From assembly GCA_017515285.1 (NCBI GenBank), contig JAFWGN010000009.1, positions 1-64,000 of the forward strand: DNA of 64,000 bases. The letters run 5' to 3'. Each line of letters starts with the position of its first letter. The first letter of the stretch is position 1. The notes under the pieces are model-generated. The model was given only the letters and a program-made list of their open reading frames with translations, searched no databases and was not told where the DNA came from. Positions 34,606 through 62,684 of this stretch are shown here, piece after piece. This DNA comes from Candidatus Saccharimonadota bacterium. Lineage in GTDB: Bacteria; Patescibacteriota; Saccharimonadia; Saccharimonadales; Saccharimonadaceae. The position numbers were made by a program, and so were the translations under genes.

Positions 34606-34635
34606 TAGACAAAGTTATTTTGGTTGTGGTATTAT
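34606..34635 (+). promoter_or_regulatory. Promoter of FISUMP leader RNA 2
   Basis: TAGACA (34606-34611), 18-bp spacer, extended -10 TGGTATTAT (34627-34635). The P1 helix of the leader starts at the expected transcript start, about 34640. Confidence 0.7.
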
Positions 34636-34639
34636 AGAA

Positions 34640-34833
34640 GTGCAACGGTTAATGATATTGTGTTGAAGTTTATTGCTTCGCCAATCGGACTTTATTGAGT
34701 AATTATTTAGTAATCATAGTGAATAATGATGGCACCATGAGGAGGCCAGTGTTCGCTCTGATTACTTTTGTGATTGGACAGTATCATTGACCGTTGCACC
34801 TCGTGGTGCCGTTTTTTGTATGGCTCTCGAGGT
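34640..34833 (+). ncRNA. Structured 5' leader RNA of FISUMP gene 2
   Basis: Predicted folds: P1, 22 bp (34640-34661 with 34778-34799); a small hairpin (34665-34668 with 34676-34679); P2 (34681-34686 with 34772-34777); P3 (34709-34716 with 34759-34766) continued by 34718-34723 with 34752-34757. The 28-nt apical loop holds ATGGCACCATGAGGAG. Its GGCACCATGAGG (34731-34742) can pair with CCTCGTGGTGCC (34799-34810), giving a pseudoknot just before TTTTTT (34812-34817). ACCTCG (34798-34803) can instead pair with CGAGGT (34828-34833). The plan is shared with 60418-60603. Likely regulatory, possibly controlling termination. Confidence 0.75.
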
Positions 34834-34853
34834 TTAATAACTAAAGGAGGCTT

Positions 34854-36785
34854 ATGCAACCAATCAGAGAAATCAGCCTAATCACCCGAGCCTTGCGGGT
34901 TAGTTTCGCCATGCTCGGTTTATTTGTTCTTGCCTTCTGTTTCGTTCCAACTTTAATCAGCGAAGCCTCCGCTGCCCAAGACGTTTCTGCCGGCGTCAAC
35001 TGGTCTGCCGTCTCCTTAACTCTTGACCCTGATTATGGTAACGGAAGCGTCGGTAGTAGCGGGCATGGTGATGTTATCTTTGATGGCATCATTCCATCTC
35101 AAGCCACCGATGGTAATCTTGGTACGATGCGCGTCGTCAAGAAAACTATCGGTATAGAAACAACGGGGCGTTATTATACAGTTTACCTTTCCACGGATTC
35201 TTCTTCCAATAGTCTTGACCTTGTTGGCGACACGGCGACTTCTATTTCGCCTATTTCCGCTACATGGAACGGTACGGACGCTTCTGCTCCTAAAACCTTC
35301 AGTAACGCTGGTTGGGGCTTTGCCGTGCCGGGGAGTCCAATCGCCAACACTTTTTCTTCCGCTTCGGTTTATGCGGCATATGACGCTTTGTCTGACATCA
35401 ATATGACTTACGCAAACAACCCCACCATCTATAATACCGGCAAATGGGCGGCTGTACCCGCCCTTACTAGCCCGCAACAAATCTGGAAGGCTACCACCAC
35501 GAACGTCAATGGTTTCGGTGGCGAACATGGCGATCTAACGAACAATCACTTTGATGTTTATTATGCTACGATTGTTGACACTGACTTTGTAGCGGGCTCT
35601 TACGAGAACCAACTCGTCTATACTGCTCTTGCTAACTCCTCCGCCATCGACACGATTACGAACAACATCTCTCGCTCACTGCAATATGGCACCAGTGGCG
35701 ATACAGAAACCCTTTCTTTTGACCTTACCCAAAGTATGCCAACCATTACAAAAGACAAAGTTGAAGTCTATCTCATTCCGCATAGCGTGACGAACAGTAA
35801 CGGCTATGTCGCTACTAACCTAGATGCGTATAAAACCAGTACTTATAAATGCATTATCGGCAGTGCCGCCAATGACTTTACTATTACGAACAACAAGGCT
35901 TCGCTAAACTGTAGCATCCCAACAAACCCTGATGGTAAGACTGCTGGTGGAGCAAACATGGAAGGAGAATATGACTTCCTCGTCACCATTCCGACTTACG
36001 GCTATAACTACATTAGTAAATACCATACCACCGATTCTTCTACCGGTACCGATTCTGAAGTTGCGAGCTTCATTTATGCCGGCCTCCAGACCAAAGCCAG
36101 AAACAACACCGATTATCTTATTACTGAGATGCAGGAGATGACGGGGAGTGTCTGTAAGAATACTAACGTCTACGACTCCACCGCCTCAAACGCCACGACC
36201 TTTTCTCTCCGCGATGTCCGGGATAACATTTCTTATAATGTTAGAAAACTTGGTGAGAATTGTTGGATGGTCCAAAACCTCCGCTTCGTCGGAACGACTC
36301 TGACTCCGGAGACGAGCGATGTGGCGACGGCGACGACGATAAATTATTCCGATATTGAATCTGGGGGCGTTCTATGGGAGCGCGCCGGTGTTCATTCGGG
36401 CGTGGATGAATACGGAGACCCGACAACATGGTATGCTTACGATACTGCAACTGCGTTAACAATTTCAGGTTCGGACCTAAACGTCGAAGAAGCGTCCCAT
36501 TCTATCTGCCCTAGCGGTTGGAAATTACCGTCATACACCGAGTTCTCGACTATTGTTGAGAAGGGAGCGATGTTTAATCCTGTAATTACAGGATTTTACG
36601 AACAATTAGAAGGACAAGAGCAACTTGTAGCCCACGGTACAGGCTATTGGTGGTCTTCGACAATCCTTAGGGGAGAGTTTAGGTATGGATTGCTCTACCA
36701 AAATCCATCGCTCCGATTGGATGGACTGACATTTGGCAGCCGAAAAACCAACGCCTTTGCCGTTCGTTGTATTGCGCGCGATTAG
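34854..36785 (+). CDS. Secreted FISUMP-domain surface protein 2
   Basis: 643-aa paralogue of the proteins at 19 and 60627. The signal segment (residues ~12-40, ending SEASAA) is nearly identical to that of protein 1, also at DNA level. A long Asn/Thr/Ser-rich region follows. The FISUMP domain runs from QEMTGSVC (~residue 425) through RDNISYNVRKL, NCWMVQNL, ICPSGWKLP and WWSS to VRCIARD. AAAGGAGG is 3 nt before ATG. It follows a structured leader of ~210 nt. The sense strand is C-rich for the first three quarters, unlike its neighbours. Likely exported and exposed at the surface. Confidence 0.86.
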   Translation: MQPIREISLITRALRVSFAMLGLFVLAFCFVPTLISEASAAQDVSAGVNWSAVSLTLDPDYGNGSVGSSGHGDVIFDGIIPSQATDGNLGTMRVVKKTIGIETTGRYYTVYLSTDSSSNSLDLVGDTATSISPISATWNGTDASAPKTFSNAGWGFAVPGSPIANTFSSASVYAAYDALSDINMTYANNPTIYNTGKWAAVPALTSPQQIWKATTTNVNGFGGEHGDLTNNHFDVYYATIVDTDFVAGSYENQLVYTALANSSAIDTITNNISRSLQYGTSGDTETLSFDLTQSMPTITKDKVEVYLIPHSVTNSNGYVATNLDAYKTSTYKCIIGSAANDFTITNNKASLNCSIPTNPDGKTAGGANMEGEYDFLVTIPTYGYNYISKYHTTDSSTGTDSEVASFIYAGLQTKARNNTDYLITEMQEMTGSVCKNTNVYDSTASNATTFSLRDVRDNISYNVRKLGENCWMVQNLRFVGTTLTPETSDVATATTINYSDIESGGVLWERAGVHSGVDEYGDPTTWYAYDTATALTISGSDLNVEEASHSICPSGWKLPSYTEFSTIVEKGAMFNPVITGFYEQLEGQEQLVAHGTGYWWSSTILRGEFRYGLLYQNPSLRLDGLTFGSRKTNAFAVRCIARD

Positions 36786-58598: not shown

Positions 58599-59393
58599 AT
58601 GTTTGAAATTTGTGTTCTTATTTTTGTGATTATTCTCGGGGCGGTGATGGGGAGTTTTGCGTGCTGTCAAGCGTGGCGGATACGGCTCAAGGAAGAGGGG
58701 AAGAAGGACCCGGGGAAAAGGAGCGTGTGCATCGCTTGTGGGAAGAAGCTGAAGTGGTTTGAGAATATTCCGATTTTGTCGTGGCTAATACAAAAAGGGA
58801 AATGCCGGAAGTGCGGAACCGCAATAGGGCGGGCGGAGATTTTGGCGGAGATACTTGGGGCGGTGAGTTTTGGGGTGATTGGTTGGAACTATTTGTGCGT
58901 TATTCCGGAGGAGGTGGGGCCCTTGGAGATGCTCGCGACGATTAATTTGCCGGCTATGGTTGCAGCGATGGCGGCGATGGTGGGGCTGATTTTGCTTGCG
59001 GTGTATGATGGGAAGTGGGGGGAGATGCCGGTTTCGATTTTGATTTATACGGTTGTGATGAGCGGAGTTTATGCGGCGTTTGATTTTACGGAAATATGGA
59101 GTTTAGTGGGGGGTGTGGCGATTCTCTCCGGGACGTATTATTTGTTATACTTTTTGTCGAAAGAGAAGTTAGTTGGGGGAGGGGATTGGATTTTGTGTCT
59201 TGCGATTGGGTTTTTGCTTGCGGATTGGAGATTGGCGCTAGTTGAACTTTGTTTGTCGAATTTGCTTGGATCTATCGTAATGCTTCCGAAGCGCAAGAAA
59301 AAGATGGCGTTTGGGCCGTTTTTGGTCGTTGCGTTTGTAATCATTTTTGCGACGAAAGGCTGGCTGCTTTCTACGCTTGCGATGGAGCTTTAG
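58599..59393 (+). CDS. pilD: Prepilin peptidase PilD
   Basis: 264-aa membrane aspartic protease that cuts and methylates prepilins. GAVMGSFACCQAW start, zinc ribbon CIACGKKL and CRKCGTAIGRAE, first catalytic Asp in AVYDGKWGEMP, second in GGGDWILCLAIGF. TATAAT (58587-58592) ends 6 nt before ATG 58599; a start at 58581 is upstream of that box. The likely substrate is the pilin-like protein at 13617. Confidence 0.93.
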   Translation: MFEICVLIFVIILGAVMGSFACCQAWRIRLKEEGKKDPGKRSVCIACGKKLKWFENIPILSWLIQKGKCRKCGTAIGRAEILAEILGAVSFGVIGWNYLCVIPEEVGPLEMLATINLPAMVAAMAAMVGLILLAVYDGKWGEMPVSILIYTVVMSGVYAAFDFTEIWSLVGGVAILSGTYYLLYFLSKEKLVGGGDWILCLAIGFLLADWRLALVELCLSNLLGSIVMLPKRKKKMAFGPFLVVAFVIIFATKGWLLSTLAMEL

Positions 59394-60355
59394 GTTAGTT
59401 CGCTGTGAAACTTTTCGTGGATTTCTTTTAGGTGGGGGTCGGTGACGTGGGTGTAAATTTGGGTCGTGGAAATGTTGGCGTGGCCGAGCATGGCTTGGAC
59501 GCTTCTGAGGTCGGCGCCGTTCATGAGGAGGTCGGTTGCAAAAGAATGTCTTAAAGTGTGCGGGGTGACGTGCTTCGTAATGCCCGCGGCGCGGGCGTAT
59601 TTTTCGATGATGCGTTGGACAGAGCGGGGAGTGAGGCGGCGGAAATTACCGCTTGTGTCGACGGTGTTTAAGTTGTGGGAATTGTTTAGGAAAAGGGCTG
59701 GGAGGGAATCGTCGCGGACGGCGAGATAATCTTTTGTTGCTTCGGCGGCGGCTTCGCTGATGAAAATCGGGCGGTCCTTTTTGCCTTTACCGCGGACGAT
59801 AAATTCGCGACGGTCGAGATTGATTGAATCGCGGTTGAGGCCTATGAGTTCGGAGACGCGGAGGCCGCCGGAGAAGAGGAGCTCGATGATGGCGCGGTCG
59901 CGGAGTCCGGATTCGGTGTCCGAGGGAATAGCGTTTAGTAAATCTTCGACTTCGTCAAAGTGGAGGAAGGTGACTTGTTTTTTGACGGCGCGGGGAAGGT
60001 CGACTAAACTTGGGTCGAGAGTTTTGATTCCGCGGCGAGTGAGATATTTGAGGAAGCCACGGAGAGCGATGAGATGGTAGGCTTGAGTTAGGGCGGAAAG
60101 GCCTTCGTCGCGGACATCATTTGTGTAACGATTGAGTTTTAGGCGGTATTTGCGGAGGAGTTCGGGGTCGATTTCTTCCGGTCTAATCTCGTCTTTTTCG
60201 AGGATTTCCGTGCAGAGTTCATAAAAACGATAGAGGTAGAGACGGTAGTTTTCGATAGTCTTTTTGGAGCGGCCTTTTTCGACTTCGAGGTGTTCGAGGA
60301 AATCGTCGATGAGCTCGTTGATGTCGGTATTATTGAGATTCGTGGGAGTTGCCAT
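59390..60355 (-). CDS. xerC: Tyrosine recombinase XerC/XerD
   Basis: 321 aa from ATG 60355; TATAAT (minus) ends 6 nt before it, and the longer frame to 60526 runs into the leader region. SAM-like N-terminal core-binding domain, then catalytic GLRVSELIGLNRDSI (Arg), HTLRHSFATDLL (His-x-x-Arg), MLGHANISTTQIYTHV (His and Tyr). It would resolve chromosome dimers at dif with FtsK. Only one Xer is seen. It overlaps the convergent pilD by 4 bp. Confidence 0.92.
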   Translation of the reverse strand: MATPTNLNNTDINELIDDFLEHLEVEKGRSKKTIENYRLYLYRFYELCTEILEKDEIRPEEIDPELLRKYRLKLNRYTNDVRDEGLSALTQAYHLIALRGFLKYLTRRGIKTLDPSLVDLPRAVKKQVTFLHFDEVEDLLNAIPSDTESGLRDRAIIELLFSGGLRVSELIGLNRDSINLDRREFIVRGKGKKDRPIFISEAAAEATKDYLAVRDDSLPALFLNNSHNLNTVDTSGNFRRLTPRSVQRIIEKYARAAGITKHVTPHTLRHSFATDLLMNGADLRSVQAMLGHANISTTQIYTHVTDPHLKEIHEKFHSELT

Positions 60356-60417: not shown

Positions 60418-60603
60418 GTGCGAAAGTCGATAGATGTTTCTGATTAGAACAGAGACCGTTCATAATATATTTTGGAATAATATTTTTGCCTACGCTAGCA
60501 AATGAAATGGCACCATGAGGAGCCATAGTTTGCTATGGTAGGTCTGACGGTCTCTGTCGGCTTTCGCACCTCGTGGTGCCATTTTTGTTCCAGTCCTCGA
60601 GGT
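60418..60603 (+). ncRNA. Structured 5' leader RNA of FISUMP gene 3
   Basis: Same plan as 34640-34833 with different stem sequences. P1 is 60418-60434 with 60553-60569 (17 bp, two G-U); a small hairpin lies at 60436-60450; P2 is 60451-60459 with 60547-60555 (competing with the inner 3 bp of P1); P3 is 60489-60493 with 60538-60542 and 60496-60502 with 60529-60535. The 26-nt loop holds ATGGCACCATGAGGAG; GGCACCATGAGG (60509-60520) can pair with CCTCGTGGTGCC (60569-60580), just before TTTTT. ACCTCG (60568-60573) can pair with CGAGGT (60598-60603). Confidence 0.75.
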
Positions 60604-60626: not shown

Positions 60627-62684
60627 ATGCAACCCATAAAACAAATTAACGCAATCAACCGCTGTCTCGGGATTTCTTTCGCCGGACTTGCGGTTCTAGT
60701 TTTAGGGTTCATATTCGCTCCAACTTTAATCAGTGAGGCCTCCGCCACCGAGAATGTCGCCACTGCTGTTTCTTGGGATGTGGTTTCCTTGACACTTGAT
60801 CCGGGTGGTGATGTTAACTTCGGGGAAGTTGTCCCCTCATCGCGCGATATTTCGATTGGTAACTTTGGTACTCAAAAGGTAGTAAAAAAGAACGTTACCG
60901 TGACGACTAATGGTGATTATTATGCTGTTTATTTGTCAACTTTCGGAGAGAATAACGCTCTAAAAACTAGTTCCGATACGGTCCAGGCCATTCCTCCTAT
61001 CGGTAACAGAGCCGCTGGTGCTGATTCTTCTAGTTTTGCTACTACGTCTTGGGGGTTTGCGATTCCGACTAGTGAAACCGCTTCTATCTTTTCTGCCTAT
61101 GATGATTTTTTAGTTAATCCTGCGGATACACAAGCCAACAATCTCACTAAACTCGGGACCGGTTCGGTTGTTTATAATACTGGTCTTTGGTCTGCGGTCC
61201 CGACTCTTTCCAATGTTTCTTTGATTCATCAACAGTCGACCAATGTCGCTACTGGTTTTTCTTCTGGTGATAACTTTCCGATTTATTATTCTATCATGAT
61301 TGATACAGACACTATGGCCGGAACGTATGAGAACCAAGTAGTTTATACCGCGATTGCGAGAGCTGGGCGTGGTGATATTAGCTATAACGTTTCGAGAGAT
61401 AAAGACATTGCCACGAGTTATCCGGGAGAGATGGAAGTTTTGCGAATTGACTTGGCCGTTACGAACTCCGGTCTAACGCCGGCGCTTGCGACTAGCGATT
61501 TGGAAATCCGCCTCGTTCCGCATAATGTCATTGCTAATAATAATTATTCTGTTGTTGGGCTGGTTGCTACCGATTATCCGATTTGCGTTCCAGCAAGCGT
61601 TACTTCCGAGGGGCAAAGCGCAGAAATTGGTTGTAGCTTACCTTTAATGGGAGCTAAAGGCTCAACTGATATCGCCGGAGATCACGTTGTCACCGAGGGT
61701 AGCACTTATGATTTTTGGGTTAAGGTTACTCTTCCCGACACATCGACCGTCGATTATGTTAGTCATTATAAGGAAGACACCACCGACGTGGCGAGCCTTA
61801 CTTATAAAACTGGTCTCCAAAGTATAAATACGAGTGGTGATTTTCTAATTACCAAAATGCAACAAATGACGGGAAGTGTTTGTCTAGCTACTAATATGTG
61901 GAACAGTCAAACCGGAAGTAGCGCCAGAATCTATGACTATCGCGGGCAAGACGGCGACAACCCGCTTCTTGCAGTTGGGGCGGATGCGAATGGGGTTTCG
62001 AGTTTTATCCTTACCGACACGCGTGATTCTAAACCTTATCTTATCCGGAGACTTGCGGATGGGGACTGTTGGATGGTACAAAATCTCAACCTTGACCTCG
62101 CGACGGTTGGAACCATAACGACTGCAAATACCGATATAAGTTCAAATTGGACGCCGAGTTTACGGTATGGGCAGACGGGAACTGCGTACGGAGACGATTC
62201 CGAGATATTTGTGTCTATGTATGATAGTAAGTATAAATACTATGACGCTTCCGAGGGAGCTATAAAAACAGACGATTCGTATAATCAGGCGCACGCCACA
62301 AGTTATTTTGGTAATTATTATACTTCTTCTGCGGTTACCGCAGAAAAAAGAGGCAGCATTTGTCCGACTGGTTGGCAAATTCCAAATCTAAGTCGTAGCG
62401 GTAATTTAAACCGTAGTTTGGCGAATCTTGTTGCTAGGTATGGGATAGAACAAAATAGTCTTATTGCGGAACATCCCGAGATTAGGCAGCTTCCGCTTTC
62501 ATTCGGTACCACCGGTTATAGTTATAACTATAACCTATTGGATGCTCCGGAATCTCGCACTATGATATTTATAGGCGAAGAAGATGGATATAACTTCTAT
62601 TTTGACGTTTCGCATCTCCTTCAGTTCGCGAATAGTGTTAATGCAAAATCTAGCGCATTGGTAGTTCGTTGCGTTGCTCGTTAG
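60627..62684 (+). CDS. Secreted FISUMP-domain surface protein 3
   Basis: 685 aa from ATG 60627, which follows AAAAAGGAGG at 3 nt; the longer frame from 60573 runs into the leader. Signal segment with a conserved APTLISEASA end. A long beta-type region contains VKKNVTVTTNGDYYAVYLST, a theme also in proteins 1 and 2. The FISUMP domain includes QQMTGSVC, TDTRDSKPYLIRRL, DCWMVQNL, ICPTGWQIP and a final VRCVAR. Transcribed divergently from xerC behind a structured leader. Confidence 0.86.
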   Translation: MQPIKQINAINRCLGISFAGLAVLVLGFIFAPTLISEASATENVATAVSWDVVSLTLDPGGDVNFGEVVPSSRDISIGNFGTQKVVKKNVTVTTNGDYYAVYLSTFGENNALKTSSDTVQAIPPIGNRAAGADSSSFATTSWGFAIPTSETASIFSAYDDFLVNPADTQANNLTKLGTGSVVYNTGLWSAVPTLSNVSLIHQQSTNVATGFSSGDNFPIYYSIMIDTDTMAGTYENQVVYTAIARAGRGDISYNVSRDKDIATSYPGEMEVLRIDLAVTNSGLTPALATSDLEIRLVPHNVIANNNYSVVGLVATDYPICVPASVTSEGQSAEIGCSLPLMGAKGSTDIAGDHVVTEGSTYDFWVKVTLPDTSTVDYVSHYKEDTTDVASLTYKTGLQSINTSGDFLITKMQQMTGSVCLATNMWNSQTGSSARIYDYRGQDGDNPLLAVGADANGVSSFILTDTRDSKPYLIRRLADGDCWMVQNLNLDLATVGTITTANTDISSNWTPSLRYGQTGTAYGDDSEIFVSMYDSKYKYYDASEGAIKTDDSYNQAHATSYFGNYYTSSAVTAEKRGSICPTGWQIPNLSRSGNLNRSLANLVARYGIEQNSLIAEHPEIRQLPLSFGTTGYSYNYNLLDAPESRTMIFIGEEDGYNFYFDVSHLLQFANSVNAKSSALVVRCVAR

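Follow-up and report, generated by a model that had tools for sequence, protein, structure and literature searches.

Transcriptional riboswitches of the purine type are built so that the 3' strand of P1 overlaps the 5' arm of the terminator, and type III toxin-antitoxin leaders (ToxIN type) are laid out as a promoter, a pseudoknotted RNA, a terminator and a gene. In the fluoride riboswitch, one tract belongs to both the pseudoknot and the base of the terminator, and strand exchange during transcription decides the outcome (PMC11077080); in the ZTP riboswitch, the terminator is reached by internal strand displacement (PMC10085676). In a review of the Patescibacteria (PMC11665869), riboswitches come up only as something that might be used for inducible expression in these organisms. 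We analyzed a leader at positions 34640-34853 of the window (the whole 64,000-nt stretch of DNA under study) that resembles each of these systems in part. The fluoride (crcB) riboswitch, RF01734, is mechanistically the nearest, with a strand common to the pseudoknot and the intrinsic terminator; the leader differs from it by a much longer P1 that begins at the predicted +1, by a 12-17 bp loop-to-tail helix, and by its genes, whose products are FISUMP proteins and others that are often membrane-bound or secreted. The ZTP (pfl) riboswitch, RF01750, is likewise a leader with a terminator, but its conserved bases and genes are different. The overlap of P1 and terminator is shared with the purine-type riboswitches, although our leader has no known aptamer and the second arm of its terminator is held by a pseudoknot. 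The layout is also that of the ToxIN-type leaders, but no tandem RNA repeats were seen and the downstream genes are not toxin-like.

A first-pass annotation of this DNA knew of no named riboswitch that follows such a plan, and our search agreed. The leader (E up to 10) and 12 relatives were compared with 4227 Rfam 15 families, yielding only tRNAs and one chance match outside the element. With no match above the gathering score, we rejected a known Rfam class, and the Rfam models of the fluoride and ZTP riboswitches gave no match to their conserved aptamer cores. Our literature searches recovered no report of the leader element and did not find the word FISUMP; two large surveys of noncoding RNA (PMC11109978, PMC8632094) make no mention of Saccharibacteria or TM7. 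Since these searches can only fail to find a precedent, the novelty of the element is unproven.

The leader had a minimum free energy (MFE) of -82.4 kcal/mol compared to a mean of -51.1 for shuffled sequences (z -7.15), and none of 200 dinucleotide shuffles reached it. All features of the leader lie on the + strand. A predicted promoter (TAGACA-18-TATTAT with a TG before the -10; 34606-34635) ends 4 nt before the outer stem, which begins at the predicted transcript start, as annotated, 4 nt past the -10 box TATTAT (34630-34635). A -10 box (TANNNT) was located 3-6 nt upstream of P1a in 37 of 40 elements from the genus, compared to 0.18 at random positions. The outer stem P1 (P1a, 34640-34661; P1b, 34778-34799) has exactly the 22 consecutive pairs, two of them G-U, that had been described; it is supported by the MFE fold and by the swapped-partner and G-U tests given below, and the GCAC that ends P1b belongs to the 5' arm of a terminator hairpin as well. 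Within P1, the MFE fold contains P3 (34681-34686/34772-34777) and P5 (34709-34725/34750-34766), completing the claimed arm of three stems, and two small side hairpins that had not been listed, P2 (GAAGUUUAUUGCUUC, 34665-34679) and P4 (34689-34700). P5, whose homologous helix (helix 4) covaries, bears the loop motif M1, found where it had been placed in the apical loop (GGCACCATGAGG, 34731-34742) and extending to (GAU)GGCACCAUGAGG at 34728-34742, which by covariation pairs with the tail T and towards the U tract.

The claimed pairing of loop and tail over 12 positions was reproduced: M1 is complementary to CCTCGTGGTGCC (34799-34810) with one G-U, and covariation identifies this tail, T (CCUCGUGGUGCC), as the M1 partner. 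The tail does adjoin the outer stem as stated, and CCTCGTGGTGCC overlaps the last base of P1 by 1 nt. The reported T6 run is present as a U6 tract (34812-34817), and a terminator scan identified an alternative hairpin, GCACC-UCGU-GGUGC (34796-34809), followed by this tract. Farther downstream are an M2-like stretch (GGCUCUCGAGG, 34822-34832), which in the MFE fold is a weak alternative partner of T and is stronger in other genomes, and the annotated ribosome-binding site, a Shine-Dalgarno (SD) sequence AAAGGAGG at 34843-34850. The gene (34854-36785) encodes a secreted FISUMP-domain protein of 643 aa (TIGR02145, E 1.2e-12). The window contains a second full leader (60418-60586) with P1a from 60418, M1 at 60509-60520, T at 60569-60580 and a U5 tract, followed by another FISUMP gene (60627-62684); the leader of the first FISUMP gene of the window (start codon near position 19) is lost at the contig end. 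An open reading frame with the sequence motif of an XerC/D-like tyrosine recombinase (59390-60350, - strand) lies divergently just before the second leader.

A BLASTN search with the leader placed the tail and loop motif at about a dozen positions of its own genome, and R1, a covariance model spanning M1 to T, detected 18 loci there, of which nearly all lie upstream of genes for secreted proteins of the FISUMP type. Comparing positions, we found the leader RNA ahead of 12 of the ~13 FISUMP (TIGR02145) genes of this genome that have upstream DNA present; the sole exception, the gene at C14:37432, has no leader RNA. Upstream of this leaderless gene stand two copies, similar to each other, of a different long imperfect palindrome (L139, C14:34500-35260). 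One copy of the leader (L048, C16:497) is degenerate, and another (L005, C17:69385-69476) is a half-copy without promoter and P1a that adjoins a FISUMP gene fragment, likely a trace of recombination.

Across the genus, R1 matched 78 of 174 genomes, several of them with at least about 24 matches, which is as many candidates as were scored. The E-values are rough, having been obtained from short-calibrated models, and the many-genome searches scored the best candidates only, so that the copy numbers are lower bounds. In G005, G149 and G111, many copies were located ~120-350 bp from contig ends, suggesting that assembly stops at repeats immediately past the leaders and that the real copy numbers are probably larger. 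FISUMP genes occur in nearly every genome of the genus (143 of 147), and the leader RNA is thus an add-on to the FISUMP family and not a fixed part of it; a large FISUMP family without any detected copy is seen in many genomes of the genus, indicating that FISUMP expression does not in general require the RNA. For the genus type, a search of 84,980 species genomes with a strict gapped pattern yielded 22 matches, all titled Candidatus Saccharibacteria and many of them from ruminant gut. A strict gapped pattern for the genus type had no match in viral contigs, and we rejected a phage origin on this ground.

Four weak R1 matches fell outside the genus, three of which showed the same plan when read by eye, and for this reason we ran a pattern and a second model, R3, over the order Saccharimonadales. 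The broader form comprises the promoter, the stem at the 5' end, M1, the tail and the U tract. The pattern was recovered in 27 of 393 genomes from 11 genera, with none in a reversed control, and R3 matched 91 of the 393 genomes and 40 of 156 genera, counting matches near E 1e-3 without inspection. The pattern scan found no copy in ~350 Patescibacteria outside the order, its three matches all falling inside the order. In 14 R3 loci that were not used for model building (two of them in pairs with the same leader core), a TATAAT-like box lies just upstream of P1a and a gene shortly downstream; their P1 stems range from -13.5 to -32.1 kcal/mol, with a mean of -26.4 in cis compared to -15.0 with swapped partners. 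In the elements we read, T is followed by the U tract, and the gene start with its SD is usually 20-80 nt farther. The downstream products of the order-wide copies, often the only copy detected in the genome, include FISUMP, DUF4352, NHL and OmpA-like proteins and short proteins with hydrophobic segments, and most look membrane-bound or secreted by eye (not L155, L175, L210 and L211). The tie to FISUMP genes suggested by the annotation does not hold for the class, which extends beyond these genes and beyond the genus, and a strict FISUMP-only leader was rejected. Residues 129-184 of the L080 FISUMP protein gave a weak match, below the cut-off, to the C-terminal domain of the CPR Pam pilin (E 8e-7).

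The helices were evaluated by covariation. In 37 aligned leaders, P1, P5 and M1:T together had a covariation of 0.432, compared to 0.193 in shuffled alignments (0 of 500) and ~0.10 in slid ones. M1:T was 95.9% paired in these leaders, with U-A/C-G, A-U/G-C and G-C/A-U compensations, and three of its pairs covary in the genus, each with at least 8 compensated sequences. In 15 order-wide elements, covariation of M1:T was 0.240 compared to 0.114 (0 of 500), with C-G/G-C/U-A, C-G/U-A and A-U/G-C compensations. RNAalifold picked M1:T unprompted; on the MAFFT alignment it returned this helix alone, since a nested prediction cannot hold P1 alongside. The sequences share ancestry, and the shuffle results are therefore not exact probabilities; the G-U and swapped-partner tests are independent of the shuffles. 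In 41 elements of the genus, P1 had -26.4 kcal/mol with its own partner and -11.6 with swapped partners. The P1 cells comprised 505 Watson-Crick pairs, 49 G-U, 2 A-C and 4 other, with the register set by Watson-Crick pairs only, and the presence of G-U without A-C indicates that selection acts on the RNA of the leader strand. Covariation backs both P1 and the loop-tail pseudoknot as structures of the RNA strand. On the tests that sequence analysis allows, the annotation was right to propose a candidate new RNA class, which is supported by the absence from Rfam, by the many copies in related genomes of the genus and the order, and by stems that covary while the loop motif is kept.

The partners of the tail are mutually exclusive: M1, the sequence on its own 5' side, with which it forms an intrinsic-terminator hairpin, or an M2 that many genomes have downstream. 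The 3' half of T pairs either with M1 or with the GCACC/GACACC immediately upstream, giving a hairpin and then the U tract, and the GCACC arm of this hairpin doubles as the foot of P1. The leader meets two criteria for an attenuator, namely a terminator-like hairpin or helix with a U tract between promoter and gene, and a mutually exclusive alternative pairing of that terminator (M1 or the hairpin for T, and P1 for the hairpin arm). Because the loop-tail pairing shares bases with the transcription stop signal, it probably decides the readout of the gene, a role that we infer in the absence of transcript data. We assign a probability of roughly 0.6 to the proposal that the leader is a cis-acting transcription attenuator RNA of a lineage-specific class. 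The pairings, conservation and covariation of the leader and its promoter and gene context are demonstrated above, and control of the FISUMP gene is an inference from the putative promoter-proximal terminator in the leader.

As an attenuator, the leader would be transcribed from P1a, and the ~22-bp stem would join its first nucleotides to the bases just before T, so that the RNA closes on itself and M1 is exposed where the inner arm ends. T, directly upstream of the U tract, would be contested by M1, in a helix of 12-17 bp reaching into the U tract, and by its GCACC/GACACC neighbour, whose small terminator hairpin itself would compete with the foot of P1. Pairing of T together with the U tract might stop a share of the transcripts within the leader, and a ligand, a protein, an RNA, temperature or polymerase speed could shift the balance. 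Apart from M1/T and the U-rich P2 loop, we did not find a ligand-like block of invariant unpaired bases. The P2 region of other members of the genus (L051, L053, L055, L073 and others) has a run of at least 4 U in 25 of 31 loci, compared to 10.6 expected from shuffles; this run and the A tract preceding M1 are complementary, and the run could be a competitor of the U tract or take part in a U.A-U triple helix. A mini-ORF (AUG-GCA-CCA-UGA) within M1 was rejected, as it is lost in copies with ACGG for AUGG.

For the FISUMP type, our guess is that the pseudoknot helix is the terminator (OFF) and that the polymerase would pass (ON) when the RNA is in the nested fold, with M1 hidden in its own hairpin and GCAC held in P1. 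The guess comes from three copies in the same genome as the window (L046, L142 and L143) that lost the small hairpin and kept M1:T, L142 and L143 by compensating changes, and from L140, L141 and L196, in which pairing is preserved inside the U tract. The small hairpin as the sole terminator was rejected because of its absence from the first three. The pseudoknot state is favoured by 12.8 kcal/mol in the genus type and 8.0 in the order-wide type before any pseudoknot penalty, and these energies leave out pseudoknot entropy and geometry.

The opposite polarity is still live, and we consider it possible but unlikely. The closed pseudoknot (P1 foot and M1:T) would then sequester both halves of the hairpin and act as an antiterminator (ON), and loss of the pseudoknot would free GACACC-UUGC-GGUGUC-U5 (OFF), as in the fluoride and ZTP riboswitches. 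The two arms of the terminator hairpin are indeed the P1 foot and the M1 partner, and the fluoride riboswitch likewise uses one strand for pseudoknot and terminator (PMC11077080). The order-wide copies retain a good small hairpin (5-7 bp, about -5 to -10 kcal/mol), and the pseudoknot there could equally be an antiterminator; L144 holds both pairings through a three-way C-to-U/G-to-A change. However, an antiterminator would have no need of M1:T in the copies without a hairpin, and M1:T itself extends into the U tract.

If the attenuator reading is true, an order-wide, strongly covarying and Rfam-absent RNA next to the promoter would regulate cell-envelope genes across a whole lineage of presumed episymbionts, in which contact with the host presumably depends on surface proteins. 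The class is also a natural system for testing whether intrinsic termination can be brought about by a long-range loop-to-tail pseudoknot. It is a much bolder, doubtful extension that self-closing switches with a pseudoknot terminator run an envelope-protein regulon throughout the Saccharibacteria, with a network in the gut species that cross-talks in trans. The gut-species part, in which loop and tail motifs have multiplied and become interchangeable and terminated leaders choose which FISUMP surface protein is made, is no less speculative.

A related suggestion, on which we place little weight, is that termination in the leader yields the functional molecule, a stable small RNA paired at both ends. 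This RNA would act in trans on M1 or T in other leaders, for instance to make surface proteins exclude one another. Its 5' end would lie within P1, its 3' U tract has a potential partner in the A tract of M1, and M1:T is interchangeable among the copies of one genome (-25.6 kcal/mol swapped compared to -26.3 in cis). P1 is not interchangeable (-11.9 kcal/mol swapped), however, and nearly all copies lie shortly before an SD and a gene, as expected of a cis leader; the single detected copy common in order-wide genomes also counts against action in trans.

Control of translation, with T pairing to M2 or the SD region in read-through mRNA, appears improbable. A second copy of the loop motif (M2) after the U tract also pairs with T in L050, L083, L066, L088 and L077, in more than a third of the genus loci examined no shuffle out of 100 exceeded the T:M2 pairing, and M2 of L050 and L083 also pairs with the start-codon region as read from the sequences. 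Against this, M2 is weak or absent in the genome of the window, and translational control would not need the U tract after T. Sequestration of the SD by T was dropped, since the types of T and SD show no matching change (by eye only). The last alternative, in which the inverted repeats merely look RNA-like and belong to a DNA element (a recombination site or a mobile repeat), fits the multiple palindromic copies, often at contig ends, and the orphan half-copy beside a gene fragment, but it is scarcely credible given the excess of G-U over A-C in P1, which is not expected of inverted-repeat DNA, the fixed promoter spacing, the orientation sense to the gene, and P1 sequences that vary between copies. 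Two leaders of the class, L006 and L008, have a common GC-rich insert between leader and gene that places the start codon ~180-240 nt past T.
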